A stretch of 64,000 nt of DNA from contig NBIV01000252.1 of assembly GCA_003194525.1 (NCBI GenBank), positions 1 to 64,000 on the forward strand, given 5' to 3'. This DNA is from Gracilariopsis chorda. Its lineage: Eukaryota > Rhodophyta > Florideophyceae > Gracilariales > Gracilariaceae. A program made the translations under genes and the position numbers. Below the pieces are notes generated by a model. It was not told where the DNA came from. It saw only the letters and a list, made by a program, of their open reading frames with translations, and ran no database searches. Position 1 is the stretch's first letter. Each line of letters starts with the position of its first letter. Shown here piece by piece: positions 1 to 36,780 of the stretch.

Positions 1-1564
1 GCAAACGCTTGGTTCGGTTCCATCAATGTGGGCGTAAAGGGCGTTACGGCGGCACACGAGCGTCAGTTCCATCCACGTCTTCACTTGGTTCCAGCGGTCT
101 GTGGCAAGCTATTCGACACAAGAACGGGCGATGTCGTTGGGGTTTTGGTTGTTTGTAGAGCAAAGAAGATCTTGTATCATTTTGAAGTACGGCTTTGAGT
201 ACATGGTGATGCAGCGCGCATTTCGGCCGTCACGACCCGCTCTGCCGGCCTGCTGGGCAAGGTCGGCCAGACTGGCACATCCTCCAAAACTTAGCACTAG
301 CCGAACGTTTGGAGTGTCGAGTCCTGTTCCAAAGGCGGAAGTGCAAGTCATGAAAATAACGGTTTGGGTTACGGCGGCGGATGGCGGAACGGAGAAGCGA
401 TGGAGCCAGTCGTCGTGTGTTTTATCCTTTTCGTGGTCGGATAAGCGGCATGATAGAAGAGGCAAAGAAAGATGTGGAAGGGAACTGGTGAGATAATGTT
501 CCTTGTACGTATTGTTGAATGACGCGGTGTAGTTGTTCTGTAGCTGAGCGTGTGAGTGTGAATAGGATGATGCGGACCAAGGATTCAGTACTTGCGGTGA
601 GCAATGTTGAGACTTGTTGTTGGAAGTACGGGACGCCTGTCTGAAGCAGATGTTGGAACAAGCTTTGATAGGTACCTGTGCAGTACGAATTCGAGGGGCT
701 TTTACGCTTGGGGAAGCGTCGTACACGGAGAAGCGGATATTGTACGGGCGGTGGAAGTGGTATACAGGTAAGCTGTTGGTATTGAAAGCTGTGATAGCAG
801 GAGTGGACGATCGCGGGGCGGCACGGTGGCACTGAGCAGTACACGGGGTATATGGGGGGGTACCATGGAAAGCGCATTGTGGATGTGTGCAAGGGATGGG
901 CGAAAGTGTTGCCATAACAGAAATAAATGCACTTCATCCACCACGATGCGGGCCAGTTTTTGTTTGTGCAACAAGCGTTGAAGCAGGGAGTTGAAAGAGG
1001 CGGAGTCAAGCACTTCGACTGACAATATATAGACATCCGCAAATGTTTCCGTGCCGCCATTGGTGTGGGGGGATGTGCTGCTCTGAAGCTGAAAGGCTGC
1101 CGCACGTGTTCGTACTCCGTAAGGAGGGCTTTGAGAGGAACGATAATGATGGAGGAATATGAGCCCTTCTCCATGTACATCGGGAGCAGTACAGACAATG
1201 TTTTTCCGGAGGCGGTCGGAGTGAGCATAAGCATGTTTCCCCGCTTTTCAAACACGGCCACCGTAACGGTAAACTGCGTAGTTGATTTAAACACAGAGGA
1301 GCCATTGGCAAGCATTTGTTGGAGTGCGTTGAGGAACGTGCCGAGTCTGTGTTCGTAATTGAGCTGTGGGGTGTATGGAGCGATGCACCACCTCTTGGGA
1401 GCTCGGATGGGGTTGGGCAGCTGTGGAGTGGGGAGGATGAGCGGGCCAGGGGTGCAAACACGTCTTTGGGCGGTTTGTAAGGGCGGTGCAGAGGTGAAAT
1501 GGTTGTGATGCGGGAATGGGGCGCTTGGCAGGAGGGGTGGTGCTCTGGTGTTGAGGAGTGTCAC
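1..1564 (-). pseudogene. RecQ-type helicase, frame-broken, runs off the left edge
   Basis: An SF2 DNA helicase of the RecQ/telomere-linked-helicase type, whose motifs lie in order on the minus strand but in at least three frames. Motif I PTASGKT is near 1200. Motif Ia IIIVPLKAL is near 1140. The DEVH box of motif II is near 935, and LLSATVP of motif III near 830. Motif V FGTGLDTP is near 310, and motif VI QAGRAGRDG near 235-260. After a TAG at 109-111 the reading continues in frame as LATDRWNQVKTWM and then CRRNALYAHIDG, a Cys-rich tail like that after the helicase core in fungal telomere-linked helicases. It follows the tyrosine-recombinase-like protein on the same strand. Frame changes could be decay, short introns or sequence errors. 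Helicase identity is firm; function of this copy is doubtful. Confidence 0.8.
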
Positions 1565-1597
1565 CGGAAGAGCGCTTCTCTTTGCGGCGTGTTTGCT

Positions 1598-2043
1598 CTA
1601 ATTGAGTAGTGAGTGCCATTTGGTGGACCATTCTTTGTACTTGCTGAGTTCGGTGTGTCGCATTCCACTGACATCGTGTGGGGTGCGTGCGTACATGAGC
1701 TCCGCAGTGTGTGCCGTGTTCCCAGCTTGATTGTGCGCGGTGGAGATGAATTCTTCCAGGATGGCCTTGGAGAGCGTGTTTTCAATGTCGTTTGCGGCGG
1801 TGGAGGAAATGAGAGCGGTGATTCCTACTGTGAAGTTGCGGTAGTCCGGCAAAGGGGAGTTTAAACCCAGCGTCGAACAGAGTGGAGCTGATGATTAGGC
1901 GAATGTTTCGAGCGTCTAGGGCATGCCGTGGGTTGAGAAAAACATACGCCAGTGTGCCTGTTTATGGGTTTCGCCGTGTATAGCCGAAACGAACCAGGTT
2001 TCGAGCGGGCAAACGATCGTCAGGTAAGTGAGAAGGAGTTCAG
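1598..2043 (-). pseudogene. C-terminal catalytic part of the tyrosine-recombinase-like protein
   Basis: Directly downstream of the 781-residue ORF the homology continues in shifted frames. One segment (about 1930-2055) reads AELLLTYLTIVCPLETWFVS and ends at a TAG. The next (1598-1852) reads PDYRNFTVGI, then QAGNTAHTAELMYAR, and ends with EWSTKWHSLL. This pattern (xYR, then QAGH/N, then a conserved Tyr-Ala-Arg, then S..WH..L) matches my recollection of the region between zinc-finger and RecQ domains of fungal telomere-linked helicases. It also matches box II of tyrosine recombinases, with YAR supplying the presumed nucleophile. Asn replaces the usual His after QAG. The frame changes make this copy probably non-functional unless introns repair it. 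The recombinase assignment is inference from motifs. Confidence 0.6.
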
Positions 2044-4389
2044 CTATCTTTGGATATGGGAAGCGTGGAATTGGGCGAGCGCCTCCTTTAGCGTTTTGAG
2101 TTTGAGGTAACGCGTGATGAGAACGGGTTGAGAGTCGAGAAGTATGAGGCAGCGTTGGTGGAACAAATCTTTGTGCAGATGATACGACTCAATCTCGGTT
2201 CCGCGAGCTGGGGAGCCGGAGGCAAAGTGGAGAACGACGAGGAGGCGCTCCTGGACTTTTTGTGCGCATGCGAGCCAGTGGGTGAGAGCAGATGTGTAGG
2301 AGTGGATACCAGCAATAAGAACTTTGGGGGTATCGTTGGGTGGTGGGGAGGGAGCTTGGAGCGAATGGTGCGATGTGTTTCCGGATGGGTTCTTTAGGCA
2401 TTGCAGCACATACTGCAGGCAGGTGTGTAGAAAAGAGCCATTGTGCGGGTGTTGGAGGAAGGAGAAGCCAGGGTTTTTGTTTGATGGTTGGTCTTTTAGT
2501 GCGTGGATGTGGCTTGTGAATGCAGGGGGGAAGGGAGATCCCAATAGCAGATCATCAATGATGATGTCATCAATTTTGGCATGGAGCCTTTTGACGATAG
2601 AACCGAGCGCGGGCAGACCCAAGTGAATGTCGCGAACGATGCCGCAGTGCGGGTGCATATCGCAGTCCACGAACGATATGTTGATGCTTTGTTTAGTGGC
2701 GATGTTCATAGCAAAGCTGAGAGTGTTGCGGATGAAAGAAAAAGCATTGTTTGATTGCACGTCAACCGACAATTCCACTTGCTGCATCTCGGAAGTAAGC
2801 TGATGAGGGGTTTTTCCTTGCTGCTTGGTGGGGTTATGCACGTGATGGATAGCGCCTGCTGCGACCCCGTATTGGAAAGCGGCGAGCAGATGGGTGAGCT
2901 CGTCGGCACTAGCATAGCGGTAGCGCTCGTCGTGTTGGTTGATGGCATCTTCGGTGTTGTGAACCAGCACAGAAGCGGCCACAATGAAGTTGCGCACAGT
3001 GATTGTATGCGTAGATGCATACGGGGGGAGCGTCTGCAGAAGCTGGGCAGTGAGCGCGCTGTGTAGGAGTTTAGGTTTTAAGTTAACGCTGTGGAGGTAG
3101 GCCGTAGTGTTTTGCGCTTGTGAAACCAGGTTGACGTCATGTTCGTGGCCTTTTTTTGTGAATAGCAAGAGACGGGCAATATCAGAGGCGTAGCGTTTGA
3201 TCGTGTCCTGCGAGACGCTGCGGAAGTTGCTGTCGGAGCGTTGGTTGAGCGTTTGGAGAAAAAATGGCGGAATGGTGCACATGAGAAATGGAACTTTGGT
3301 GAGGTACATGAAAACATTGTTGGTCATAGCAGCCATTGCATCGATGTCGCTTGCACATGTTGGATTTGTGAGTATGGTTGCGTCCTTGAGGCTGACAGAA
3401 ACAGACTGGATTATGATGTCCAGCTTGGTACACGCAATGAAGAAGTTGGGTTTTTGTTGTGCTTGTGGTTGCAGATGCAGATGATTGGTTTGGATATGTG
3501 AGGTGCTTAAGCTTTTGAAGAAGTTGTTCACTGCTTCTTCGGTTTTGTGTTCCGGTTGCAGTATGTGTCGGGGTCTGGAGTTTGTGTTCGGGCTGGGGGG
3601 TTGCATGGGCTGTGGCAGTATCGGTGCCGGGGGTTGGGACTGGAGGTTTTGAGGTAGAAGGGGTTGCTGCAGAGTGTTGACCGTTTGGATAGGCAGTTGA
3701 AGGTGTTTGCTTATGGTTCCAACGGGGGAGGCGGAGCTCACCGCAAACAGCAGACGGCGAGTGCAGCCGAATATGGTTTGCACTTTTACGGTGCTTTGCT
3801 TCGATGTTTGTTCTATTAGCCAAGAAACCGAATGCGCGTGATTGGAATGTGTGTTTGTGATGTGCTCATGGAGACGCTGAAGGTCAATGTAGCGGGAGGT
3901 GCACTGCGCGCAGCGGTAGCCGTTCAATATTTGCAGCCCGGCTAGTGGACGCAGAACAGCCACGTTTTGGTTCGGCGCTTCCGGATCATACCAATTCCAT
4001 AGCGGGGGGAGGTTGTTCTGCTTAAGCATTTCGGTTCTGCGGGACCACATGATGTCGGATGCTTTGCGAGCCTCTTCCTGGCGGAGGAAGTGCGCCTTTC
4101 GGAGATGATAGCGCACGGCACGTCGCGAGGGGATTACAGATTCACATTTGAGGCACAGGACGAAGAAGCCGATGGAGTGAATGGCAAGGTTGATAACGGT
4201 GTCGAGCGGGTTGGTGAAGGAGGGAGATGCATTTCGTTCTTCATCCGCGATCTGCCCGGCTGATGTTGAGATTATGGCGGTAGCGTTGGGGTTGAGACGG
4301 TTGGATTGTGGTGTGTTCGCGTTTGGAGCCGGACCAGGCTGGATATAGTCCAGTCCTATGGAGTGGTTGTGCAAAGTGAGGTTGTCCAT
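2044..4389 (-). CDS. Two-zinc-finger protein with tyrosine-recombinase box I (N-terminal part)
   Basis: An open 781-codon frame starting at ATG 4389. Two C2H2-like fingers are visible: C79-C82-H95-H100 and C160-C163-H176-H181. This paired arrangement is like the OrsD/DUF3505-type region of fungal proteins that are often fused or adjacent to RecQ helicases. A Gln/Pro-rich stretch (about 235-290) follows, then a helical middle section. Near the C-terminus SPARGTEIESYHL (Arg729) looks like tyrosine-recombinase box I, and LKLKT (Lys763/765) sits where a beta-hairpin lysine would. The frame stops just before the box II motifs, which continue downstream in other frames. It probably binds DNA and acts with the helicase. 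Recombinase activity is inferred, not shown. Confidence 0.65.
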   Translation of the reverse strand: MDNLTLHNHSIGLDYIQPGPAPNANTPQSNRLNPNATAIISTSAGQIADEERNASPSFTNPLDTVINLAIHSIGFFVLCLKCESVIPSRRAVRYHLRKAHFLRQEEARKASDIMWSRRTEMLKQNNLPPLWNWYDPEAPNQNVAVLRPLAGLQILNGYRCAQCTSRYIDLQRLHEHITNTHSNHAHSVSWLIEQTSKQSTVKVQTIFGCTRRLLFAVSSASPVGTISKHLQLPIQTVNTLQQPLLPQNLQSQPPAPILPQPMQPPSPNTNSRPRHILQPEHKTEEAVNNFFKSLSTSHIQTNHLHLQPQAQQKPNFFIACTKLDIIIQSVSVSLKDATILTNPTCASDIDAMAAMTNNVFMYLTKVPFLMCTIPPFFLQTLNQRSDSNFRSVSQDTIKRYASDIARLLLFTKKGHEHDVNLVSQAQNTTAYLHSVNLKPKLLHSALTAQLLQTLPPYASTHTITVRNFIVAASVLVHNTEDAINQHDERYRYASADELTHLLAAFQYGVAAGAIHHVHNPTKQQGKTPHQLTSEMQQVELSVDVQSNNAFSFIRNTLSFAMNIATKQSINISFVDCDMHPHCGIVRDIHLGLPALGSIVKRLHAKIDDIIIDDLLLGSPFPPAFTSHIHALKDQPSNKNPGFSFLQHPHNGSFLHTCLQYVLQCLKNPSGNTSHHSLQAPSPPPNDTPKVLIAGIHSYTSALTHWLACAQKVQERLLVVLHFASGSPARGTEIESYHLHKDLFHQRCLILLDSQPVLITRYLKLKTLKEALAQFHASHIQR

Positions 4390-4943
4390 ATTGGTATGCT
4401 CGCAGAAGGGAAGGAGATAAAAAGAAAGGCAGAGCGAGAGATAGAGATGGGTTTTGGCGTGCGGTTGAGTTGTAGAGGTTTTTTGGGGGTAGGGGGAGAG
4501 ATGGGAAGAGGTTTATTAGTGGCTGGTTGGTGGGCTTTTTGTAGTGATGATTGTGAGGGGGGGCTTGCGCAAAGACGCCGCAATGTGGGTTTTTTGGCGC
4601 GCTCATACAGCATCGGAAGTATGAGCTCGCATAGGCTATGGGACTAATACTCGCCACACATGTACACCATGAGGTGCAGAGGGAAAACGGAGCTGGCGCG
4701 GCTGGAGATATGTGGACGTTCGTTTAGGTTCACACATGACGTCATACACAAATTGTAATTGGGTTTTTGGTAAGGTGGGAGGTGTGCTGTGTGTGGGGTG
4801 ATACACATGCCCATGCGCACAGTGGGAATGAGCCGGTGCACACCACAAAACGGCACAGGATTACGTAATACGTTCTTATGCACATGCAAAGGAGCAGGTT
4901 TGAGGAATTTGTTTAGGAGTTTTCACCCTTAGGGAGAGGGTGT
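4390..4943. other. Intergenic stretch between the recombinase-like and SET genes
   Basis: No convincing gene. A minus-strand open stretch (4644-4889, about 81 codons) has no recognisable motif. The region is the natural place for the 5' leader or promoter of the recombinase-like gene and for the 3' end of the SET gene, but I see no definite signal. Confidence 0.4.
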
Positions 4944-5780
4944 TTAGGGGTTTTTATTGTGTTTTGTAGAAGTCGAAGAAGGTGTCTGGGGCGAAGGGGT
5001 ACCAAGATTATTGGTCCAATCGTAAGAAGTACCGTAGTCGATGAAGAGTTCCTCTCCGCGTGCTATACGGCGGGTAGCTCTGATTGTTATCAGAGTGTAA
5101 GGCTCGAGGTGCTTACGTGTTTTAAGCGCAGATATCGCAGAACGATCAACGTAGACATTGGCCGTTCGTCTGCATTTGAAACCATCACGAACGGGCTGCG
5201 CGTCAGGATCCAACTGGAGGTACCTTGGGTCATTGATGAGTCCTCCTACCCAAAAGGGAGCTGGCGAGATCCAAACGCTTGGTATTTTCTTGTCCTTGTT
5301 CAGTCCGATGAGGGAGGTGAAGTCCGGAGCCCTGAGGTCCACTTGCATACAATACGTGCGGAAATACTGTGGGGTAACGCCCATCAAGCCGGAGCCGTAT
5401 GTTTTGTGGATTTCGGTTCGCTGGGACATGTCGTGATATACCAACGTGCCGTAAAAGTGGAAGACTGTCTCGTCTTCTGCGAACGTACAGCCTGCAAAAA
5501 CGCCAACCCCAGCAGACGGGTGCACAATGGTTGATTCGGCCACAATAAGGCGTAGCGTTGAAGCCTCATGAGCGCGGAGCTCGTTCACGCTCATTAGGTT
5601 GAAGAGTCCTTGGTACTTCTCGGGCCATTGGGAGAGGTCCATGTGAAGGCCGGTGGTGACGAAGTCCTGTGCGCGCCATTTAGAGGAACAATACAAAACT
5701 ATGTGCTCCGGCAGCGTTTGGTATTGAGGGAAGTTTGGCACGGCTGCCCAAGTCTGGGAGGGACGCAGATATCCCTTAAA
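4944..5780 (-). CDS. SET-domain protein (putative lysine methyltransferase)
   Basis: A SET-domain protein predicted to transfer methyl groups from S-adenosylmethionine to lysine, often on histones. SET landmarks occur in order, numbered from the codon at 5741. SAGVGVFAGCTF (about 77-86) is the N-terminal SET strand. HFYGTL (95-100) follows. INDPRYLQ (169-176) and ANVYVD (194-199) stand at the position of the NHS...N motif. GEELFIDYGTSYDW (229-242) is the C-terminal tyrosine motif. No cysteine-rich post-SET follows. The open frame extends upstream without a stop to the TAA that ends the methyltransferase; the first ATG in frame is at 5642. It therefore either starts there or is read as a continuation of the upstream ORF. 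Target and activity unknown. Confidence 0.8.
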   Translation of the reverse strand, partial: FKGYLRPSQTWAAVPNFPQYQTLPEHIVLYCSSKWRAQDFVTTGLHMDLSQWPEKYQGLFNLMSVNELRAHEASTLRLIVAESTIVHPSAGVGVFAGCTFAEDETVFHFYGTLVYHDMSQRTEIHKTYGSGLMGVTPQYFRTYCMQVDLRAPDFTSLIGLNKDKKIPSVWISPAPFWVGGLINDPRYLQLDPDAQPVRDGFKCRRTANVYVDRSAISALKTRKHLEPYTLITIRATRRIARGEELFIDYGTSYDWTNNLGTPSPQTPSSTSTKHNKNP

Positions 5781-6773
5781 TTAGTTGTGCACCGCGTTGG
5801 CTGCATCCACCAAACCTTTCGTGACGGTAACGCTGGCAACGTTCTCGTCAATGAGTCTTGAGAAGTGTTTCAGTGCGTGATGTCTGGCGTGGTGGAAGCA
5901 TGCTTCGTCCTTCTCGCAACCGACGAATCTGCGTGCTTCGCCTTTCTTAAAAGACATGCAGGCAAGCGCTGTCGAGAAGGTGCCGCCAAACAGGTCAAGA
6001 ACCGTATCACCCGGTTGAGAGAACCTGGAAATGAGCTCCATGTTGAGTCGAATTGGCTTTTGTTCTGGACGAACAGCCTCACGCTTCACATCTTCGCTGT
6101 CTGTGTAGCGGGACCACATGAGACGCTCATTCAAATCGTCGGCCGGAACACGGTCGATGATTTTCTTGTACGCGGTGACCGTGGACGGGACGTAACTGAA
6201 GTTGGTGTAGTTCACCATTTTGTCCTTTTGCGCCCGAGTGAGACCTGTTTTGACGCCATGAACCGCGTATTGGGTGATGGGTATCAACTCTCCAGATGCT
6301 AGGCCCGGCGACACGGTGTTGTTACCCGGTGCACGGATCATGTGCAATGGGCAGTGGTCCACGTGGAACATTGTGGCAACGGTACCATCGGCTTCCCTGC
6401 GGTCAACGCTGTTCAACAGCTTACGCCAACGCGCGAACTGCTCAAGCGAGCAGAAAATGACGAAGTGGCCACCAGCACGTAACAAGGGACTCATTGTTAT
6501 TGTAACCCCTTTCATGTCGGCGACGGTGAGGGTGTCGTAGTCGCTGTTCGGCCTGCCACGCATAGAGCGAATGGCGTAAGGGGGGTCTGTCAATACCAAC
6601 TGAGCCTGGGAGCATGGCACGGGGTCCGGGGCACGCAATGTGTTGTGCACATCCACGAGGTCGTCAAAGCCGCAGCAATACATTGCGTAATGCTTCATCA
6701 TATGCTCCTGCACCAATTCCAATGCATTGAGCACGTGTACGTCGGCCGGCTGGTCTGGGGGAATGATGTCCGC
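5781..6773 (-). CDS. Beta-class DNA amino-methyltransferase (DPPY before FGG)
   Basis: A SAM-dependent amino-methyltransferase of the N6-adenine/N4-cytosine DNA methylase fold. Numbering from the codon at 6734, TDPPYAI (residues 49-55) is catalytic motif IV. EQKPIRLNMELI (about 224-235) leads into VLDLFGGTFSTALAC (245-259), the SAM-binding motif I, and FVGCEKDE follows. Catalytic motif before SAM motif is the beta-class order seen in many restriction-modification enzymes. DPPY suggests adenine N6 as the target, but specificity cannot be read from sequence. The first in-frame ATG after the preceding TAG is 6701. The open frame actually begins right after that TAG (6774-6776), and after its own TAA (5781-5783) the same frame continues into the SET ORF. 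Such enzymes are patchy in eukaryotes, so element-borne origin is likely. Confidence 0.85.
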   Translation of the reverse strand, partial: ADIIPPDQPADVHVLNALELVQEHMMKHYAMYCCGFDDLVDVHNTLRAPDPVPCSQAQLVLTDPPYAIRSMRGRPNSDYDTLTVADMKGVTITMSPLLRAGGHFVIFCSLEQFARWRKLLNSVDRREADGTVATMFHVDHCPLHMIRAPGNNTVSPGLASGELIPITQYAVHGVKTGLTRAQKDKMVNYTNFSYVPSTVTAYKKIIDRVPADDLNERLMWSRYTDSEDVKREAVRPEQKPIRLNMELISRFSQPGDTVLDLFGGTFSTALACMSFKKGEARRFVGCEKDEACFHHARHHALKHFSRLIDENVASVTVTKGLVDAANAVHN

Positions 6774-7346
6774 CTACTCCTCGCTGTAGGGAAGATCGCG
6801 CTCCATTGTACTCTGTGGGTCCGGGCCTAGCGAGGAGGGGGGGTGGGGCGCCTTGGGATTGCTGCCCGTGGTTCCACCGCTGCTACTGCTGCTGGTGGGT
6901 TCTTGTACCAAGTCTATGACGTTCACTGGTATGGCGGAAGTGGCGGGACGCCCAGCAGCAGTAGTGGCAGATTTGGCACTGGCGTGCGCGTTGTGGTGTT
7001 GGGTGTTGACCTCACGAATGGGTTTCCAAAGCTGCGCACTCAGCATGTCGAACCGTTGGAGGAACGAACGCTGCCGGGAATGCTGCGGCTCGATTTCCTT
7101 ACACTTGTCGTCTGGAAGCAACTCTAGCAGCAACTTCCATGGGCGCAAGTTCGCCTCGTACAGTCGGGGATGCGAGACGACGCTGACCACATCGCTAAGG
7201 AACTCCTCACTCAGTGCGCGGAGGCTTGAATACACCTCGTCCGATTGTGCGAACGCTTTGGAGTCCACTTGGGATAGGTCGGTGCATGATTTTTCGGTCC
7301 TGTGTGAGAGTTTTAAGCTGCGTGAGTGGAGAGAAGCCATCTTCAC
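6774..7346 (-). CDS. Unrecognised protein, Ser/Thr/Pro-rich C-terminus
   Basis: I do not recognise this 190-codon frame. It is charged and helical at first (SSLRALSEEFLSDVVSVVSH), becomes low-complexity (SSSSSGGTTG), and ends SEE before a TAG at 6774-6776. The next ORF (methyltransferase) is in the same frame, so it could be the N-terminal part of one long translation product. It overlaps in another frame with an upstream ORF (7207-7752). The two are likely pieces of one gene joined by a frame change near 7330. Position suggests it belongs with the methyltransferase and SET genes. Confidence 0.5.
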   Translation of the reverse strand: MKMASLHSRSLKLSHRTEKSCTDLSQVDSKAFAQSDEVYSSLRALSEEFLSDVVSVVSHPRLYEANLRPWKLLLELLPDDKCKEIEPQHSRQRSFLQRFDMLSAQLWKPIREVNTQHHNAHASAKSATTAAGRPATSAIPVNVIDLVQEPTSSSSSGGTTGSNPKAPHPPSSLGPDPQSTMERDLPYSEE

Positions 7347-7752
7347 GATTGCCTATTACTTCAAACCCCAAGCTGTCCGGATCGAAAATGATATACGGGT
7401 ACACCATGCTCTCAACGTCAGTGAATCCGAGAAAGGTGGCAAAGCAATCCCACGAGCGAGTAACCTGTTGCACACCGTACGCAACTCGGCTGCAGGTGAA
7501 CGCGTCGAAGTTCCTAAGGGAGCTCGGCGTCGTCTGAGCACCCGGAATGGGTGGTCCTCGCTTTCGCTTTCCAGAGAAAGCTACGCGCTGGCGAGACCAC
7601 TGTACAAACATCGTCATGTAAATCAACACCTCGAATCGCGAAGCGCGTTCTGTTGGGACATCGGTGCGTTTGTTCTTATAGTAGTGTTGCATGTAAGTGT
7701 GGGTTTGCGCTTGGTTTTGAGGGATGTCGGTAAGCGCTTGGTTCTGACGCAA
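7207..7752 (-). CDS. Unrecognised protein; first ORF of the cluster, starts in the repeat array
   Basis: An open 181-codon frame with no domain I recognise. Its first codons (RQNQALTDIPQNQAQ) are translations of the CCAAGCGC core that recurs upstream, so the gene starts inside the edge of the repeat array. The middle contains SWDCFATFLGFTDVESMVYPYIIFDPDSL in scattered order with hydrophobic strands, typical of a folded protein. It overlaps the next ORF by about 140 bases in another frame, so the true gene may pass from one to the other by frameshift or intron around 7330. Confidence 0.45.
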   Translation of the reverse strand: MRQNQALTDIPQNQAQTHTYMQHYYKNKRTDVPTERASRFEVLIYMTMFVQWSRQRVAFSGKRKRGPPIPGAQTTPSSLRNFDAFTCSRVAYGVQQVTRSWDCFATFLGFTDVESMVYPYIIFDPDSLGFEVIGNREDGFSPLTQLKTLTQDRKIMHRPIPSGLQSVRTIGRGVFKPPRTE

Positions 7753-8645
7753 AACGTTAAACGAGTGGTGTAATCGCTGTATGTACGTTTTTCATGCCTT
7801 AAGTGGATGAAGAAGAGCTGTGCGCCGGTTATGAAAAGAACGCTTGAGCTCAAAAACCCTGGCTAAATATTATAGAATGCTTGGTTCGGCTAAAAACCAA
7901 GCGCATACATCAAAAAATTAGGATTTGACATCGCCGTTTGCGCTTGGTTTTAGGCATATATAGCACGTGCCGCGTGCATGTCGTGTAAGTAGCGTAGTTG
8001 GGCGCATATTTAAAGGTTTAGCGCGCCAATACAGGGTGCCCCAGCGCTTGGTTTTAGCCATGATTTGTCAGAGCCTTGTAAGAAGGTCCTGAAAGTGCGC
8101 GCGCGCGCATATGTGCGTGTTGGAGGCTTTGGAAGAATGGTTTCTGAGCTGGTTTGGCAAGGTTTGGTCGCATGCTCCATGCGCTTGGTTTTAGCCAGCT
8201 TTTCGCAGACCAAGCGCGTGGGATGTTTTTTGGCTCATTTGTAGAATGTGGGAAAGCGCTTGGTTTTGGACTGGCTTGCAGAAACCAAGCAACACGTCAA
8301 TATTTTGCACATTGTACAAATGTACGAAAGCGCTTGGTTTTGGACACATTTGCCCAAATCAAACATTTCGGGCATGTTTACGCACATTGTGCAAATGATC
8401 GAAAGCGCTTGGTTTTGGGCACATTCACGCAACCTAGCAGTGCGGGGTTTTTTTCGCACATTGTAGAAATATGCGAAAGCGCTTGGTTTTAGGCCATTTA
8501 GGTGCGAGACCAAGCAAAGCGTGGATTTTTTTGCACATTGTACAAGACTGCAAAAGCCCTTGGTTTTTGCAACATTTGCTAAAACCATGCAATGCAGGCA
8601 TGTTAACGCATATTGAGCAAAAGGGCGAAAGCGCTTGGTTTTGAA
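7700..8645. repeat. Array of a GCGCTTGGTTTT core, ~75-bp period on the right side
   Basis: The core (A)GCGCTTGGTTTT recurs near 7707, 7733, 7939, 8043, 8181, 8254, 8330, 8404, 8478, 8553 and 8628. The last six are spaced 74-76 bases apart. The spacers between them are degenerate copies of one another (for example GCACATTGTACAAATG variants). Several cores are paired with an inverted copy (AACCAAGC), for example 7879-7905 and 8181-8215, giving potential hairpins. Because 75 is divisible by three, open frames run through the array on both strands with a repeated QNQAL or KTKRF; these are probably not proteins. The array lies just upstream of the first gene of the minus-strand cluster, so it may hold recognition sites or a promoter. 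Confidence 0.75.
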
Positions 8646-8760
8646 GAGATTTGTGGAAACCTTCTTCGGCTGTTTCTGGCATCCATGGTATGAATCGAAC
8701 AAATTCCTTGAGCTTCTGATCTGCCTTTAGTTCTCCAGAAGATAAAATAGAGGATGTCCG

Positions 8761-11084: not shown

Positions 11085-12150
11085 CTAAACTCCATTCGGA
11101 CGCGGAAAGAACATCTTCAAGCGACGAGCGTGTATGCCATGTCTGGTGTAGCGATTGTGTGGGGAAACCAATGTGTAGCGGGGGTGCATGGCTCTCACAA
11201 CACTACATGGGCCAAAGAACTTCAAAGAGAATGCAGGCCACTTAATTGTTGTATTCAAGGCCTTTCCCTTTGCATTCAAAACCAGATCGCCAACTTGAAA
11301 CTTCTGTATCTTCTTCTCGTCAACATTTTGCCTGCGTCTGAGCGCAGAACGCTCCGCCCTGGGGTTAGATGCTACTAAAGCTTCGACTGCTTTGAATGTG
11401 TCCGTAGAATTCGTCCTTCTGGTAACCATGCCCTCCTTCTCTCGGGCCATGCGCGGCTTCACGCCATAAAGTAGCTCGAAAGGCGAGATTCCACTGGCTA
11501 GGTGTCTGCGACGGTATCCATACAGTACAGAAGAAAGATCATCGTCCCAACTAGAACGGTTTGCAAGCACCATCTTTCCAAGAGACCGCTTAAGTGTAGC
11601 AACCATTCTTTCAGCTCTACCATTCGACATGGGAGCGTAAGCCAGGACTGTCTTCCACTTGATACCATTTTCTTTCATGAAAGCTGAAAGGGAGTTAGAA
11701 GTGAAGCAAGTCGCGTTGTCTGACACAATGATCCTAGGCAGCCCGAAGGGAGAAATGATCATCTTCTTCACAAAGTCAATAACCACTTGTGGCGTAGATG
11801 TTTTGGTGGGAATAGAAATAGACCAGCCAGTCAAGTGCTCCACACAAACCAGAAGAAACCTGTGCCCGGAGCTTCTTTTCGGGAATGGGCCTGCGAAGTC
11901 AATCGAGTATACATCAAAAAGAGAGGACATGGGAGTATGCATGTTGCTGTAGTACTTGGGCAGTGGGGCCATTCTCTGACATTCGTCGCAACTCTTGACA
12001 TATTCTCCAATTTCTTGGTAAATATTGGGCCACCAGAACCCCTCAGTGATCATCTTCCTCGTAGCCTTAACGTCCCAATGTCCGATCTCATCATGAAACG
12101 ACTTGATAATGATTTGTCTCAGTTTGATGTCGGGAACAACTCATAGGTGA
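11085..12150 (-). pseudogene. Integrase region of the gypsy element
   Basis: Integrase domain that would insert the cDNA. The N-terminal HHCC zinc-binding motif is split: two histidines (H..H around ESFHDEIGHWD, 12075-12110) and then CDECQRM. The catalytic core has D in VYSIDFAGP, D in IIVSDNATCF and E in NGRAERMV, the DDE triad. The open frame (322 codons from 12053) ends with the C-terminal region LVLNAKGKAL...KFFGPCSVVRAM. The histidine part and the RNase H part upstream are in another frame, so the polyprotein is broken. Confidence 0.9.
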
Positions 12151-12151
12151 T

Positions 12152-13402
12152 TCACCATTCTTCTGAAGAGCTTCCCTTCTCAGACAAGGAACCGCTTAGC
12201 GTTTCGTCGGATCGCCTGACGGATGTAGGCATCTTCCTCATCAGAAGGCAACCCAGAAAGGTAGCGAGCAATATTAGCATAGTACGGTTGCAGTCCAGAA
12301 AACTGTACGGCGTCAGAGGCCAGACAAACCAAATCCCATTCGTCTTCGTGCACTTCAACTTATTTTCCATGAACGACCCTAGAGAGATAATCGGCAGCAC
12401 CATTATCCTTGCCTGCACGGTACTCAATCTCGAAATCATATTCAGCCAGGAAATCGAGCCAGCGTGCCAAGCGTCCATGTATATCTCGCTTCTGGAATGC
12501 ATAACGCAGAGCCATGTGATCAGTGATAACCTTGAATGGAACGGACGAAAGAAGATACACCCTGAACGTCTTAAGAGCAAATATGACCGCCAAAGCTTCT
12601 CTTTCGCATGCAGAGTAATATTTCCTGCTGCAGTCATGGTACGGCTGGCAAATTGCAGCGGGTGAATGCTTCCATCCTCTTTCTTCTGAGATAACACTGG
12701 GCTACGGGAAACACTGGAAGCGTCGGTCTCCACAATGAAAGGCTCCTCGAAGTCTGGAAACGATAACAATGGGGGCTCTGTCAGCTTCTTCTTCAAACTT
12801 TGAAAGGCATCAAGCATCTCATCCGTCCATGTCAGAGTCCTGGTCCCAGATGTAGCACTGTGAAGAGCTGAAGATGTCTCTGCAAAGCCTCTGATGAATT
12901 GGCGATAGTACCCTGCCAATCCAAGAAATGACCTTAGCTCTGTTGTAGTTCTGGGGATTGGGGCGTCCTGTATCTTCTCAATCTTTGAATAGTCCACAGA
13001 TAACCCACTGGAATCAATGACATGTCCAAGAAGAGATATTCTCGGGAGTGCAAAGAAACACTTTGACAACTTAAGCTTAAGGCCGTGCTTACTAATGCGT
13101 TCCAGCACTACCTTCCGATGAACAGTATGCTCTTCCCAGCTCTTAGAGAACATAACAACGTCATCAATATAGACTTTCACGAACGGCAGATCTCTAAGAA
13201 CATGGTCCATCATCCGCTGAAAGGTAGAGGGAGCATTCATTAGACCAAAAGGCATGACTTTGAACATGAAAGTTCCATACCTGCAAACAAAATTGGTCAT
13301 CTCTTTGGATTCTTCAGACATTCTCACTTGCCAGTATCCAGAAAACAGATCGAGTGTAGTGAACACGCAACACCCGCTAATGTCGTCAAATATTTCCTCC
13401 AT
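12152..13402 (-). pseudogene. Reverse transcriptase - RNase H region of the gypsy element
   Basis: Reverse transcriptase with FTTLDLFSGYWQVRM, then FGLMNAPSTFQRMMD and the active site VYIDDVVMFS (YxDD). The thumb (LRSFLGLAGYYRQFIRGFA) and start of RNase H (FIVETDASS) follow. RNase H then continues in a different frame at 12360-12593 (FKVITDHMALRY, LDFLAEYDFEIEYRAGKDN, ADYLSR). The change of frame near 12600 and the TAG that separates this segment from the upstream part show the copy is defective. Confidence 0.9.
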
Positions 13403-13414
13403 TCGAGGCAGCGG

Positions 13415-14824
13415 CTAGCGATCTGCCTTCATGACCCTATTGAGTTCTCGGTAGTCCACACAGAACCTTGGAGATCCATCTTCCTTAGAGGCTATGACCA
13501 CTGGAAACGACCAGGCTGACGAAGAAGGGGTAATAATACCGGCTTCAAGTAGGAGATCTATTTCCTTTCGAATGAACTCATTGTGCTTCGGGGACATTCT
13601 TCTTGCCCGGAAATATATTGGCTTATCAACGGTGAGCTCGAAGGAATGTGAGACGGGGACATCGGCAGGGCGCAGATCTGTTAAGGACCACGCGATTACA
13701 TGAGCTTCTTTCAGGCATGAGCTCATCTCTTTTTGTTCTTTCTCTGGTACATGAGAGAGCTTTGAGAACAACAACTCATCATGCTGATCCTTAGTAGTGA
13801 TGTCCAACTCTGATATCATGTCATTACTTTCGTCTTGAGTCTTGCCTGTCAGAGCGACGACCAGTTCATCATCCTCCTCGGAATCGCTCTCATCACAAGC
13901 AGCGTCGGAGTCAGACGTAAAATCGTCGCTATCCGTGTCACCCTCATCCCCTTCTGATACTTCAACGCGAGCATAGTCAAACCCAAGTGTCACTTTCTTG
14001 CCAGCTATTTTCATATTAACTTGTTGATTACCAAGATCTAGGCAGGCCTGAAGCGTCTCAAGTGTGGGACACCCAACAATACTATCGAATGGAGGCCCTC
14101 CGATTACAAGGAAGTCCAATGGAATTGAAATGCCTCCGAACGAAATGGGCACATCATGAAATATACCCTTACATACAGCGCTTGTTCCATTAGCAACCGT
14201 GATCGTCTTTGAGGTAGGTTCGGGCTCCAACGATAGTTTCATGCACAGCTTAGTAGACATGAGGTTAGAGACAGCACCAGAATCAAGCAAAGCTTCGGTT
14301 TCAGTTCCATATATCCTTACAGGAACTGCTTTCAGAAGTCTAGGCTGTCTGCCAACTGGAGCAACAAGAGAGCGCCGGACATTGCTTTTTTGGCTAATGA
14401 ACTTTCGAATCTCTTTCTTAGCGTCATCGGAGTCTCCACGGATTAATTGCCCAAACGTGAGCCCAGATGAGGCATTAGCCAGCTCCGTTAGAACATTATA
14501 TTTGCTTGCATGATCCTGCATTCTCTCTTTCCTGGGCTTTTTCTGTTTTTGTTTCTTTTGCTTCTGCTCATGACCCTTTGCGCGGAGGATTCTCTCTTCA
14601 TAGCCAGGTGGCTTCAACAAGGAAGGGATAGGTGCTCTGCCATCTGAACGGCGCTGCGTTGGGAGCGCTTCACCATCGGCACTTTTCTTGGTCGTAGCGA
14701 CGACTTCGGCACTCTGAGGGTTCTCAGTCACGATGGAAACGGTATCAGACCTCTTCTGTGCGCTGGACGAAGAATCTTTCTGTTCCTCTCTGTTTTCCGA
14801 CACCTTTCGAGTCTCTTCGGGCAT
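13415..14824 (-). pseudogene. Protease and N-terminal reverse transcriptase of the gypsy element
   Basis: Open 469-codon frame. The retropepsin-type protease motif is ALLDSGAVSNLMS near residue 180, with its second half in FLVIGGPPFDSIVGCPTL. An acidic linker (SDDFTSDSDAACDESDSEEDDE) follows in broken runs. The start of reverse transcriptase then appears (FCVDYRELNRVMKADR). It stops at a TAG where gypsy elements normally have an aromatic residue before PLPR, and the same frame continues at once into the reverse transcriptase segment. Just upstream of its ATG a second zinc knuckle (CARCGKLGHSDIAC) is readable. Confidence 0.88.
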
Positions 14825-14889
14825 GATACGTCTCCAACAAGCAATGTCGGAGTGCCCAAGCTTTCCACACCTAGCACATCTGGTATCAC

Positions 14890-15671
14890 GGTGTGGGTTG
14901 GCATCACATTAAGACGCGTAGTGACCGGGCTCCCTACAGTAGGCGCATGTTTGTTTTCTCGTAATCTCTGCGCTCCGCCTGTGACTTCTTAACCATGAGA
15001 GTAAGCTCTGCGAAGTGTTCGGATAATTTATCAACCTTGGACTCCAAACCCTGGTAAGAAGAATTATCCAATGGTCTGTGGTTTTGGACAATACGCTTCG
15101 GTGGGCCCATGAATGAAACATGCGAACCCATCCCTTTCTTGGCAGCATCGAAGGCTTTCACTTGAATCTTCAACTCTTCATAATCTTCTGCACCACGAAA
15201 GACGATAAACTGAGCTAAATCAGCGTATTCCATCACCGCTTTTCTTAACAGGCCGAAATTTGCCTTACAATTGAATCCAGCTTTCTGGAAGAGGATGTCC
15301 ATATGACTCAAGGAACCAACCAAATCTCCATAATCCAGTTTAGCCGATATTGCCAGGCGAATATCTTCTTCAGGTTCTTCGACTTTTCCAAAGCGATTGA
15401 TAAAAGCTTGTTTCACGGATTGATAATCTTTTGCTTCTTCAGAGAGGGAACCATTAATGGCGTAAGGATCATAATAAAACTTGAAGTCTTTCTTCTCTAG
15501 AAAGCCAAGAAGCTCGAGCCCCATATCGTCTTCGGTCTTTCCTCTCATAGCAACATTTTCAAAGTAGAAGAAAAACATCACAACTTCTACAGACATTCCA
15601 TCGAAAGAAGTGAATGTAGGGCTAGAATCAGAAGAATTCCTTCCTCGAGAGTACCATGTGGGCGCCATCAC
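14890..15671 (-). pseudogene. Gag of the gypsy element
   Basis: Capsid/nucleocapsid protein. The frame 14934-15671 starts close to the 5' LTR and contains the helical capsid core (YDPYAINGSLSEEAKDYQSV, then AFINRFG). The CCHC knuckle CAYCREPGHYAS*C (about 14905-14955) is reached only after a frame change, and a TAA sits inside the knuckle. The capsid is recognisable from composition, position and the following knuckle rather than from a strong motif. Confidence 0.75.
15636..15656 (-). other. Primer-binding site of the gypsy element
   Basis: Immediately inside the 5' LTR the minus strand reads TGGTACTCTCGAGGAAGG. TGG directly abutting the LTR end complements a tRNA CCA 3' end, as expected for tRNA-primed reverse transcription. 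I cannot name the tRNA; it is not the common initiator-methionine sequence (TGGTATCAGAG). Confidence 0.6.
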
Positions 15672-18337: not shown

Positions 18338-19282
18338 TTAGATACCATCAGCTTCCAGTTCGTCACTCATGACAGAATGCGTGCCTTCAGACAAGGAATC
18401 CGAACTTTCATTGCATTCACTCGTCTCAGAGTCCTCTCTAATTTCGTTGACATTGGTGGATACGTTGACCGTGCACTCGGTCTGGCCATCTGTAGTCAGT
18501 CTCACATCTCCTGAGCTCGTTTCTGTGGTCCCCTGTGTATCGCCTTCCCCTCCTTCAGTCTGCACCGATGTCGGCCTGTTCTTGCAAATTTCCTCGAGAC
18601 ACCCGCATCCTATGCATTTTACGGATGTCTTCACGCATGTGCACCTCCGCGTGACACAGTCCCCTTTGCAATTACATGAAGTTATAACGTTGGTAATCCT
18701 TTTTTGTATCTCCTTAACATCCTGCTCGCAATCCACAAGTACCGTTCCATCGGTTTCAAACCTGTTTGCCTTTGAACACCCTCTTACAACACGGTGACCA
18801 AGGTCTCGATCGCTAGACTTCCCCCAATACTTCTCTACAATGAAAAGCGCCCTGTTATAGTGTATCATAATGTGTTCACGATGTGGCACCAGCTCATTAC
18901 TCATGTTGCTCATGTCAGCCACAAAATTCCTGACATCGATACTCCACTCCGCACTCCCTACAGGATGGCTCGATACGAAGCAAGACCGTCTGAGGAAAGA
19001 AAGCTCCTGTGACTTCAAGACGCCTCGTTGCACTTCTTTCGATATAACTCCTTTCTGCTCTTGTTGGGTGCATACAATCTTCTTGCCATGTCGCACCAGG
19101 TACAGCATACAGAACAGCAAATCTGCAGCATCTAGGCTGCGTTCGCCTGCTGCGAGGAGAGAGCCTCCAGACTTGATGAACATAGAAAACGGCTTCCAGA
19201 ACATGTCATGACTCATTCCGTAAATGGAGGGAGAAAAGTCACACCCCGCCAAACAGTACAGAGTTGCCACACTTCCCCGCAA
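18338..19282 (-). pseudogene. C-terminal part of the large element protein: GCDF motif and CXC domain
   Basis: Open 314-codon frame, in a different frame from the preceding segment (19213-21456) and overlapping it by 70 bases. It starts with LYCLAGCDFSPSIYGMSHD, which continues the acidic SEDTD region of the upstream segment. Residues 203-234 form a cysteine cluster (CNCKGDC, RRCTC, CIGCGC, C) like tesmin/TSO1 CXC domains, which bind DNA. The tail is Ser/Thr/Glu-rich. The natural protein must have run through, so a frameshift near 19240 breaks it, or the copy uses an intron there. Confidence 0.65.
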
Positions 19283-21456
19283 GTGCCCATCGTCTGTAAA
19301 GAATCAACAGCAGCATCCAGATCATGGACAGAATCGCTTTTTACGTGCAGAATGCCTTTGCGGTACATACAAGGATTGCTGAGAAGAATCATGAACACGT
19401 CTGTATCCTCTGATACAATGTCTGATTGGCATGCTTCCTCATGCACCCAAACCTGAGAATGCGCTCCGTAGCCATCATAGCCCTCCGCACTTGCCCTTTC
19501 TTGTGTGACACCTCGTATGTACTCCATTGTTACAGCAACAAACCTGGTTTCCGCCTCTCCATGACGTATGTCGACGCCACCGACGTACATACAACCACTG
19601 GACTGAAACACAAGGCATCGAAATAGCGGCGCTGCAACGAGATTGCCCTCATCTGTAGAAGTTGAATCCCTTTTGGACAGAATCACACGGCCAGCCAGTG
19701 AATTCCCCACAACACCTTGTGACGCCCTTTTAGGCAGAAAATCCGATGGTACGCAATTACCAAAGGTGGTCGGTATAGCAAACGAGCCACCGTGAAGAAA
19801 TACGGAGCACTGCTGTTGAGTCTCATCAAGCAACTCAAACGCCGCTACTGCTCCACAGAACAAATGAAGTGTGGCCAGCTCATTCTTGTACGCTCTGTCC
19901 TTGAGTAGCAATGACCATGGTACATTCCATTCATCCTGAAAACCAATACCCGGAGGAAGGTTTGTATTTCTTGACTGTTCCAGATCATCAATGACATTGT
20001 AGTTGCTCCTGTTGAAGTCCCACCTCATCTGCTCCGCCTTCTTTTGAACAAGAACCTGTACGGGGTCGTCGATGTGCAAGTGAAGTTGTCGCAAACGTTG
20101 CGCACGTGGACCTGTGATCCACGGCCGTATAATTGCCTTCATTTTACTCGTCACAACTTTTTCCAACGATGTCCCTCTCTGCCCCGAGTCTCCCCTATAG
20201 TGCAGCGAATTCATGACTTCGATTTGAACGGTGGCATAAAATGGCATGCATGTGTCGAATCGGTTGCGTGAAACTTTTCTTAGCGTGTTACCATCTTGTT
20301 CAGTGGTTACTAGATCATTCATGGGATATATTACTTCCCTGTTGTCTGCTGACGAGTATTTAAGGAGTCTGGACTTCACCCCGTGAGCGACGTGGCCGTC
20401 TTGATTCAGAAAGCTGTCCGCGTATGGAGATATCATATACCTCGATTCATGTAACGCATCCCAGCGGGCCAATACCTCCTTCAAGTAGAGGTGATTTCCG
20501 GTGCTCAATGCCAATCTCTCTTCGGCGTGCAGAGCGTCCTTCAAATTTGACAATTTTCGTCGACATTCCTGCACTGTTTTCATGAAGGCCTCCCTGCTTC
20601 TCGGTCTTTTACGAGTACTAATGTGCTCATGAACTCGTGTTACGTCTGTAAAGTGTTCCGCATGACCTAAAAACTCAGTCCCGCCAGCCTTAGACATGGA
20701 CTTACCGGGTGTCAGTACAGCTCTAGCCTTTGTCCAATGCTTGAATTTCTTGCCACCGAAGTATTGTGTTCTTTCACTTTCATTCAATGCCCCGAACAAT
20801 TCAGGGAATAGGACCGATGCATGGAGCTTTGCGGTGAGTTTTCCTTTTTCTGTTATACTGAAAATATTGTCTTGGTCTCTTCTGATGGCCATACGCTTCG
20901 GAGGTGCACAAAATACGTTCGTGAGCCACTCTTCTCCACGATGCGACGCACTCAAAAATCCAGCTTCTCTCATGACATGTATTATCCTTGCGACTGTCTT
21001 CCAGTGACATGCTTTCCTGTCATATTGCACGAGTGGCCCTAGCGGGTCCCCACCATCACCTTCATCTCTCGTGCGACCGCACGACCTACACGCCTCTGTC
21101 ATGAACCTTGTTAAAGCTCTGAACATTGAAACCTGCATCAGCCATGCTGCCGAATTCTCTAGATGCCCCAAGAAGTTGAAGCTTAGACTCTTCACATGCC
21201 TTACTATCAACATTTCTAGAGCCTCGTCAATGTGAGTGTATCCAAAGCCCCACCTATCGACACCGAATCTTCCCCTCCCTGTGAAGCTGAGCAGCTTCAT
21301 GACCATGTGGCCTGGTTTTTTTTGTGAATAGCTCTTCGGTGACTGCAGGCGGCAGAATTCTTTTAAAGAACGCGAAAAATAGTGAAAGCTCTTGATACTT
21401 GAGGTGCGCGGACGAATGCAGGATGGCATTGTGTTTATACCAAAAAGCATGTACAA
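19213..21456 (-). pseudogene. Central part of the large element protein with SEDTD motif
   Basis: Open 747-codon frame. An early segment (DRWGFGYTHIDEALEMLIVR followed by HVKSL) has conserved acidic residues of the kind (D...E..v..vK) I recall in DUF6589-like, transposon-derived proteins. Near the end VSEDTDVFMILLSNP resembles the metal-binding strand of PIN/FEN-type nucleases or an RNase H-like fold, and it is followed in the next segment by GCDF. Overall it could be a transposase-nuclease, but I cannot assign a superfamily. It is separated from the upstream segment at 21254-21559 by a frame change near 21320. Confidence 0.5.
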
Positions 21457-21559
21457 ATTCTGTGTGTCCAGTTCTCGAGAGAACGTGGAACCCTACGGTG
21501 GGCAGTAGACACGAGAAAAGCACTGTTTCCACAAAATGTACTCCATTTGTCCCCTGCAC
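21254..21559 (-). pseudogene. Short segment of the large element protein
   Basis: A 101-codon frame. It contains SRTGHTEFVHAFWYKHN and KYQELSLFFAFFKRILPPAV, plausible helices. Its first part precedes, and its last 68 codons overlap, the start of the 747-codon frame, which suggests a one-base shift near 21320. Between it and 21776 the coding frame is unclear; a CTTGCAG sequence near 21784 could be a splice acceptor. Confidence 0.4.
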
Positions 21560-21775
21560 GAATCGCGACTGTATCCTCTCCCTCAGAGACTCACCTACCC
21601 GAATTACATCAGGTGTAACAATATCGGATGTGGCGCCGTAGAGGGAATCAGACGGCTTTTACCGCTGGTCATGATGGCATTCGTTTGCTGTGGATTGAGT
21701 AGGACAATCTGCAGAGAACCGTTTTGCAGTGTGGGTCTTGTTAAGCTCTGAGACGTTCGCCGAAAGATGTGCATC

Positions 21776-22096
21776 TTATTGGACTGCAAGGTTGATTAAA
21801 TGAATAATGAACGCGCAGGCGAGATTGAACAAAACCGCGCGGTTGTTTCGGGCATGAGAGTGTTTCAGAAAGTTTGCAACGATGCTGCTAGACAATCCTG
21901 CGCATTTGGCGAGCTCATCCAAGCCTAGCCCATCCAACATCTCCTTGCAAAAACCATACATCGCCTGCTTCTCGGCATGGAAAAAGCCAGGGAAAGGAAC
22001 CAACCAATCGTGCAACTGCAAGCCTTCCCCGTGCACGTTGTCATCATTTTCACGCGTCTTTCTACAGCGGGCCAGATGTCCACGCCACGACTCCAG
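21776..22096 (-). pseudogene. Segment of the large element protein after an in-frame TAG
   Basis: Continues the 843-codon frame directly past a TAG (22097-22099). It reads LESWRGHLARC, then DWLVPFPGFFHAEKQAMYGF, and GLGLDELAKCAGLSSS, ending LINLAVQ before TAA. The order GDQ ... PGFFHAEK ... AG....... resembles large uncharacterised animal and fungal proteins of suspected transposon origin. The single stop in an otherwise continuous frame indicates recent damage or readthrough. Confidence 0.5.
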
Positions 22097-24628: not shown

Positions 24629-24956
24629 TACTGTTGAAGAGGACGTGGAGGGGGGTCAGAGGGTCGGTTAATATGGCATCGGGTGGAATAGGCACCGTGG
24701 AGGACTTGTCTCGATCTTGAGGTCGAGTTGATGCCGAAATGATGTCGCAACGAAGATGAGAGCGGGAAAAGCGGACCTACGGGTACAGTCACGAAGGGGT
24801 TTTGGAGGGAAACAGAAAGGCGGACAACTTCAAAATTTATCATAATGCCCCACTTTTAGAATGAAAATCGCATTTTCACTGACTGCTTGATTCCTTCAAC
24901 GTCAAGAAAAACGCGTTTTGCTTGCGGCCTCGTGCCGGGAATGTAACGTTGGATTG
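24629..24956. other. Upstream region of the large element protein
   Basis: No supported gene. It presumably holds the promoter of the minus-strand gene. The last five bases (GATTG, 24952-24956) are the left target duplication of the solo LTR. Confidence 0.4.
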
Positions 24957-29045: not shown

Positions 29046-29087
29046 GTGAATGGCCAGTCGCTCTACTTTTGGTACGATGTGAACATG

Positions 29088-29933
29088 TCAAAACTCGAAA
29101 ATTCTCCAAGCTGCATTGACAGCGCCCACCACACGTGCTCGCATGTATGCACGAATGTCTTTCTGCACCTGCGGCTCTTGTTGCTGCTCGTTGTGTGTGC
29201 CTATCTCTTTAGCACCACTCACGTTGAGCACCACCTCCTGAGCTTTGGGCTGCTTAAACGCGTACTTCATCAGATAAGCCACTGCGCCCCCTCCTTGCGT
29301 GCGCTCTACGTTGATATGAGAGCGGTACTTCTTGGTCAGAGTTGGGTTGTACGGCACTATCTTGAGGTCATGTTGCCTTCTTCTGCGGTAGAACACGCGA
29401 TTTGTGTCTTCTTCAATGTACATCTCCGGCACAATCATGTTGCGGTCGTATCCAAACTTGCAACGCCCAGCGCGATTCCAGCAATAGGTGGAGTGGCAGT
29501 GCCTGTGCATGGAACGAATGAGGGCACGCAATGCGTCGTCTTCACCGGGAAGAGGAAGTTCTGCACGAATCAGCTCGTCAATCACATCAAGGTCTTCAAT
29601 CACGCCTCCTTCGAGCCACAAGAGCATGTGGTGATGAGGCACATTGCGCTCCTGAAACTCGAGCTTTGATGCAAGCCCCAGGCACTTCAATCCGAAGACG
29701 TGCTCCGAGTTCTTCTCCAAGTCCTTCATGAAGTCGTTTGCGTACTGGTTGTACACGCTTGCAATCAGATCAGGTCGGTCAAACGGTCGAGGGCGGTTAC
29801 TCTGTGCCGTAAATGCGCTCCGATTGCTGGTATCCATACCAAGGCGCTGGATGTCCTCTCTCCAGATGTTCATGGTGATTGTAATGAACAGAGAAGACGG
29901 TTCTCTCCGCGCTACGATCGCCTGTACATCCAT
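29088..29933 (-). pseudogene. HUH nuclease (Rep) domain of the Helitron, copy A
   Basis: The rolling-circle endonuclease. The metal-binding HUH motif is PHHHMLLWL (His100-His102). The catalytic tyrosine motif is AYLMKYAFK (Tyr220 and Tyr224, the two-tyrosine Helitron pattern). YNPTLTKKYRSHINVE precedes it. The frame ends at a TGA right after AAWRIFEF, and the same frame continues into the helicase. Its start is joined to the N-terminal segment by a frame change near 29935, where copy A lacks bases still present in copy B. Confidence 0.88.
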
Positions 29934-34967: not shown

Positions 34968-34969
34968 TC

Positions 34970-36777: not shown

Positions 36778-36780
36778 TCG

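Follow-up and report, generated by a model that had tools for sequence, protein, structure and literature searches.

The first 64,000 nucleotides of the 122-kb contig NBIV01000252.1 of the red alga Gracilariopsis chorda (hereafter, the window) begin with a decayed, 5′-truncated member of a multicopy element that consists of two genes. One gene encodes an N-terminal region of unknown function, a beta-class amino-DNA-methyltransferase and a SET domain in a single protein, and the other joins OrsD fingers, a tyrosine recombinase and a RecQ helicase. The explanation that we favour overall, albeit tentatively, is that this element represents a family of mobile elements of G. chorda that accumulates at chromosome ends. 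The host assignment is in keeping with the presence of light-harvesting genes, of which the one inspected comes nearest to PDB chains of red algal and cryptophyte type (among them 7y5e), and with a 100% match at C199 to the G. chorda protein P0002. A search of the genome (91.3 Mb in 1,081 contigs) gave 82 matched stretches for the recombinase gene, which were grouped into 36 loci; their recombinase identity to the window was ~59-93% for clade A, ~34-49% for clade B and 27-36% for a tlh2 type. The parts of the window copy, which belongs to clade A, and the sequences that adjoin it are as follows.

1-7677, minus strand: clade-A element copy, 5′-truncated at 7677, its 3′ end lost at the contig start.
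6774-7346, minus strand: N-terminal region of the fusion protein, function unknown, ended by an in-frame TAG (6774-6776).
5781-6734, minus strand: beta-class amino-DNA-methyltransferase domain (Pfam N6_N4_Mtase, 3.1e-16), stopped by a TAA (5781-5783).
4944-5741, minus strand: SET domain of the fusion protein (Pfam SET, 2.3e-7), in the methyltransferase frame.
2044-4389, minus strand: OrsD-type C2H2 fingers (Pfam OrsD, 7.7e-7) and the recombinase region to just past box I (GSPARGTEI).
1598-2090, minus strand: remaining recombinase domain, out of frame, the counterpart of DYR ... QAGH ... YAR in C236.
1-1564, minus strand: RecQ-like helicase in several frames (DEAD, 2.8e-6 and 2.2e-7; Helicase_C, 5e-8), cut by the contig start.
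7678-7784, minus strand: last 107 bases of a different element, X, which reach exactly to the junction and are 76% identical to the 3′ terminus of clade B in C236.
7700-8650, minus strand: CCAAGCGC-bearing repeats in element X, with a ~75-base period at 8208-8646, absent from other clade-A loci.

A first-pass annotation of this DNA had described a cluster of five genes on one strand that extended to position 8645. Our Pfam scan of the window bore out the parts it named, their common strand and their order; the five genes, in turn, proved to be pieces of two. The ORFs (open reading frames) of the unknown protein, the methyltransferase and the SET protein are a single frame interrupted by the two stop codons given above, and the N-terminal region, which had no Pfam match, extends upstream as a shifted-frame piece within the ORF at 7207-7752. 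The finger-recombinase gene is broken by a frame shift near 2090. We deduced that the natural unit comprises two genes, because relatives join OrsD, the recombinase and RecQ, and because other loci join the methyltransferase and SET. In all five of the other loci checked (L052, L057, L040, L037 and L038), the methyltransferase and SET make one open frame, and the fusion frames of C236, C539 and C9 are 831, 760 and 784 amino acids long; protein P0008 bears both Pfam domains and looks like the same fusion, and P0003 and P0007 are fusion-like, with SET parts recognised by eye only. On the other side, Pfam found OrsD and the helicase within one protein of 1611-1666 amino acids in P0053 (1637 amino acids), P0054, P0056 and P0057, and the helicase without an OrsD match in P0055 (1462 amino acids); all five align across the recombinase region.

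The element stops at 7677 and not at 8645, because beyond 7677 the sequence belongs to the 3′ end of element X. An upstream sequence common to 19 other clade-A loci is absent from the window copy, and the match to the window starts at 7677 in 17 of these 19 loci; in the remaining two it starts 2 and 57 bases further inside. Position 7677 was thus ruled out as a natural 5′ end, since the other loci run on upstream. The CCAAGCGC repeats lie outside the element, because other clade-A loci do not share them, and the array was rejected as a recombinase site of the element because at least three copies were found only in the window among the loci examined.

Could these genes be unrelated neighbours brought together by chance, or by faulty assembly? 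The damaged state of the window copy and its place at a contig end would favour this. However, the same order recurs in a C236 copy, which is 96% identical to the window over 6,045 bases and runs further on both sides, and 33 of the 36 recombinase loci have SET upstream on their own strand, so that we find such an origin scarcely conceivable. This count, in which one place was used for each of the 36 loci and 50 of 53 stretches for the Plavaka transposase discussed below, also upheld the expected linkage to SET; the expectation of a multicopy, telomere-associated unit was likewise supported. The loci without SET are C165 (a SET remnant at the contig end), C276 (a methyltransferase remnant 27 kb upstream) and C140:198900 (tlh2 type).

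The recombinase region has a tyrosine-recombinase-like catalytic fold, as judged from the predicted structure of a homologue, whose best matches were the Xer, Cre and lambda integrases; the structure check proposed in the first-pass annotation thus came out in its favour. The catalytic residues R-K-R-H-Y occur in order and are invariant in 11 of 11 aligned homologues, and the C236 clade-A copy has them too; beyond box I, the window copy is no longer in frame. Foldseek searches of PDB and BFVD returned nothing for the recombinase at E ≤ 0.001, and sequence profiles (Pfam up to E 10, PHROGs and PDB sequences) gave no recombinase. A protein search with the truncated recombinase of the window found no relatives; one with the intact C140 relative did. 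It aligned a fungal OrsD protein with the recombinase region (1.6e-7), and the queried part of the C140 locus proved 100% identical to P0050, a protein of G. chorda with the annotation "ATP-dependent DNA helicase tlh2", in line with the previously noted likeness to fungal telomere-linked helicases. In the window, C236 and C140 copies, Pfam scans identified a RecQ-like core (DEAD and Helicase_C) and no reverse transcriptase among the element ORFs. A search of IMG/VR with the methyltransferase profile and the tlh2 protein, made to probe a viral origin, gave no confirmed match.

How might such elements have come to lie at chromosome ends? A loose CCCTAA pattern had 38 forward and 99 reverse matches, against 1 and 0 for the control; among the first places of these 137 matches, many are at contig starts (forward) or contig ends (reverse), with a degenerate CCCCTAAAA-like unit, and some are in 2.98-kb tandem repeats or contig interiors. 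On all six contig ends that bear both terminal telomere repeats and an element (C95, C140, C159, C182, C276 and C306), the 5′ end of the nearest element faces the telomere, in a hand tally in which two of the six are tlh2-type. On C306, CCCCTAAAAA repeats directly cap the 5′ side of a clade-A stump. In 29 hand-entered contigs, from which C117 and C140 (mixed orientation), small pieces on C58, C232 and C263 and contigs of unknown length were left out, the 5′ side was closer to the contig end in 19 of the 24 contigs of at least 40 kb (p = 0.0066), with several elements on a contig counted once and C151 practically tied. An outward-facing 5′ end is what would be expected of elements that attach by their 3′ ends and then erode, in the manner of telomeric retroelements; here, however, the scanned ORFs contain no reverse transcriptase.

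The copies are arranged head to tail, with truncated 5′ ends. When C236 sequence served as the query of a DNA search, the 3′ end of clade B was uniform, 28 of the 85 matched rows stopping at query 1748-1752 and their starts varying, and clade-A rows started at several points inside a 112-base tandem array; six rows ended at 1148-1150. On C236, the 5′ end of a clade-A element immediately adjoins a clade-B 3′ end; on C138, a clade-B 3′ end at 37726 adjoins a clade-A copy truncated within the methyltransferase; and in the window, the truncated clade-A copy meets the 3′ end of element X. We therefore propose a model in which the recombinase would act on the shared 3′ terminal sequence, linking it either to a chromosome end that has worn back or to an older element whose 5′ end has eroded, and in which RecQ would open the DNA end during joining. 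The outcome would be head-to-tail arrays whose 5′ ends point toward the telomere and are worn back from there. We regard such recombinase-driven addition at chromosome ends as nearly, though not quite, an even proposition.

An alternative is that homologous recombination, break-induced replication and healing by telomerase have spread the arrays as passive subtelomeric repeats, and that the recombinase is idle today. Several observations weigh in this direction and against our model: the C306 stump was healed directly by telomere repeats, most recombinase copies carry stops, and the C9 array (11736-15576) has the look of tandem duplication, with overlaps of 2-5 bases at its junctions. The contig of the window is, moreover, one of the five exceptions to the polarity, telomere adjacency was not seen for the window copy, C117 is discordant and the interior of C140 is mixed in orientation. 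In contrast, passive spread does not readily account for a uniform 3′ end beside variable 5′ ends, for the terminal 107 bases that elements B and X have in common and at which both stop at the junction, or for the retention of the catalytic residues in every aligned homologue. We consider passive spread to be a possibility well short of even, but one to be taken seriously.

Several repeats were observed alongside these elements. A degenerate CCCCTAAAA / CCCTAAAAA repeat at the ends of the six contigs named above, and also in L070, is a candidate telomere of G. chorda. Tandem repeats of ~2.98 kb, each containing a single telomere-like CCCTAAAACCCCTAAAGCCCCTAA stretch, occur at C117:244879-256802 and on C505, C578, C697, C343 and C269. 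The 112-base-unit array, which has internal inverted symmetry, lies on the 5′ side of clade-A elements (L061:2250-3200; L068), and related units are also found in the 3′ region.

The methyltransferase and SET form a cassette whose distribution extends beyond the recombinase elements. The genome search gave 127 matches for the methyltransferase and 145 for SET; SET is directly downstream at 104 of 122 merged methyltransferase loci, and the methyltransferase is directly upstream at 104 of 137 SET loci. Twenty-nine of the 122 methyltransferase loci are near a recombinase, 29 are near an opposite-strand Plavaka transposase, none is near both and 64 were left unassigned; these 64 may include Plavaka, of which 50 of 491 candidates were scored, and some are clade A or B by sequence (C49, C117, C151, C276 and C637). 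Conversely, neither the methyltransferase nor SET was found within 10 kb of 13 of the 50 Plavaka loci. At L060, the fusion ORF, an ORF without a Pfam match and a Plavaka transposase (1.7e-21) occur together. Because the cassette also accompanies dispersed Plavaka transposons, it is a shared travelling module and not a defining part of the recombinase core. Furthermore, copies lacking the methyltransferase and SET, which the first-pass annotation had named as refuting its proposal, were found for the tlh2 subfamily: among the best candidates scored, the tlh2-type elements on C140 (186-201 kb, with 203-208 kb left out), C95 and C907 gave no match to either domain. The proposal of a subtelomeric unit that brings its own DNA and SET methylases is nevertheless largely supported, in that it holds for clades A and B; it does not extend to the tlh2 type, and the cassette is not exclusive to the unit.

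At L060:1021-7791, Plavaka copies that are 98-100% identical lie beside the methyltransferase-SET fusion, which suggests recent activity, and a long near-perfect palindrome (L060:7935-8003) lies just upstream of the fusion ORF in this Plavaka-type element. The L064 ORF at 5004-5930 was compared as a possible relative of the Plavaka transposase and showed no relation.

Is the cassette, then, a passenger derived from Plavaka, with no role in the telomeric element? Its presence near Plavaka at 29 methyltransferase loci and its absence from the tlh2 type would agree with this. However, the passenger reading is opposed by the linkage of SET to the recombinase at all but three loci, and no Plavaka match was found in the window element or in the scanned ORFs of the C236 clade-A copy. 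The window methyltransferase is also closer to clade B (54-57% identity to most copies, 51% to one) than to three Plavaka-type copies (40-43%), and the divergence between clades A and B (dN 0.33, dS saturated) fits a single old acquisition held by selection. We therefore think a mere passenger improbable, and propose instead that the cassette was gained before clades A and B split and is carried by Plavaka as well.

In the clade A and Plavaka types, the DPPY motif IV of the methyltransferase precedes motif I, the beta-class order, and the nearest solved relatives are DpnA, RsrI, CcrM and MboIIA. The SET part retains GEELFIDYG and with it, judged from the sequence, the catalytic tyrosine. The canonical SET motif is NHxxxPN; INDPRY stands where it is expected, no NHxxxPN was seen, and no PDB sequence matched SET at E ≤ 0.1. 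Mean pairwise dN/dS (ratio of nonsynonymous to synonymous substitution rates) in clade A is 0.63 for the methyltransferase (5 copies) and 1.29 for SET (6 copies), and these copies decay near-neutrally; in clade B it is 0.81 (4 copies). By contrast, C14 and C35 differ with a ratio of 0.16.

We speculate that the cassette might methylate the DNA of the element and nearby histones, by which copies would escape host silencing. This role, suggested by analogy with transposon-borne SET and TET enzymes, is possible but doubtful. In clade B, DAPA, DAPT, DALT or AAPT replaces DPPY in 9 of 9 loci (L037-L044 and L047), with motif I mostly kept. To judge from this loss, SET alone may be enough, or the methyltransferase may serve in some non-catalytic way. 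SET proteins can also act as repressive writers, and the cassette might instead write repressive marks that turn the arrays into heterochromatin at chromosome ends, aiding host tolerance or end capping, for which the telomeric position of the elements would speak. The near-identical Plavaka copies, however, also carry the cassette in contig interiors, where silencing would hinder spread; we judge such self-silencing rather unlikely.

Beyond the element, the window contains two Helitron-like units of Rep and PIF1 helicase (26751-29960 and 33423-36780), a retroelement integrase (rve and an H2C2 zinc-binding domain) at 11085-12053 with neighbouring ORFs to 15707 that are Gypsy-like by eye, three minus-strand open frames of 321, 759 and 852 amino acids without a Pfam match at 18341-24655, and a spermidine/spermine synthase gene (Spermine_synth, 6.9e-38) at 43461-44303, which is probably a host gene. 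Scans of the window for tRNA and Rfam families were empty.

If our model holds, subtelomeric RecQ families gain a candidate mobilising enzyme, and telomere-linked helicases may be recombinase-based mobile elements. Methylation of DNA bases and of histones could be coupled in one protein, carried by two unrelated transposon types within one alga, and long-read methylation calling could put self-marking by selfish DNA to the test. From the repeats at the contig ends comes, in addition, a candidate for the telomere sequence of a florideophyte; a 2020 review describes telomere information on red algae as mostly missing or fragmentary (PMC7046594).

We found no account of such an element in the titles and abstracts of the open-licence PMC literature. 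Perhaps, though we hold this with considerable doubt, it stands for a class of eukaryotic mobile elements that is new: non-retro, built on a tyrosine recombinase and RecQ, lengthening chromosome ends through the attachment of a precise 3′ terminus, and setting a dual mark of its own on DNA and histones by means of the methyltransferase-SET fusion, a cassette that moves between unrelated transposon classes. Like the fungal TLH/tlh genes, the G. chorda element is subtelomeric, multicopy and RecQ-like, and its C140 relative is annotated as tlh2. Truncated copies are described among subtelomeric RecQ helicases in parts of two reports (PMC12857005 and PMC7473861), and passages of the latter give no domain beyond the helicase core for those of A. 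bisporus and other fungi. In contrast to the fungal genes, the G. chorda element has fingers and a recombinase fused upstream, and clades A and B add the methyltransferase-SET fusion gene. HeT-A and terminons, as well as MoTeR and FoTeR, likewise form head-to-tail arrays with a precise 3′ end, 5′ truncation and a 5′ end toward the telomere. For FoTeR, telomeric polarity and 5′ truncation appear in passages of PMC12857005. Unlike these telomeric retroelements, the G. chorda element carries a recombinase and a helicase, with no reverse transcriptase in the scanned ORFs. Crypton and DIRS elements also have a tyrosine recombinase, and DIRS elements carry an adenine-methyltransferase-like domain; as described, they are set apart from the G. 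chorda element, which links OrsD fingers, RecQ and the SET fusion and forms telomere-facing arrays. Finally, HarbingerS and MuDR elements with SET, and fungal DNA transposons bearing TET/JBP, are likewise transposons that carry an epigenetic enzyme, and passages of PMC12730594 describe such enzymes on transposons, Plavaka hosts included. What distinguishes G. chorda from these chromatin-enzyme transposons is one protein that fuses a DNA amino-methyltransferase to SET, borne on two unrelated element types in one genome.

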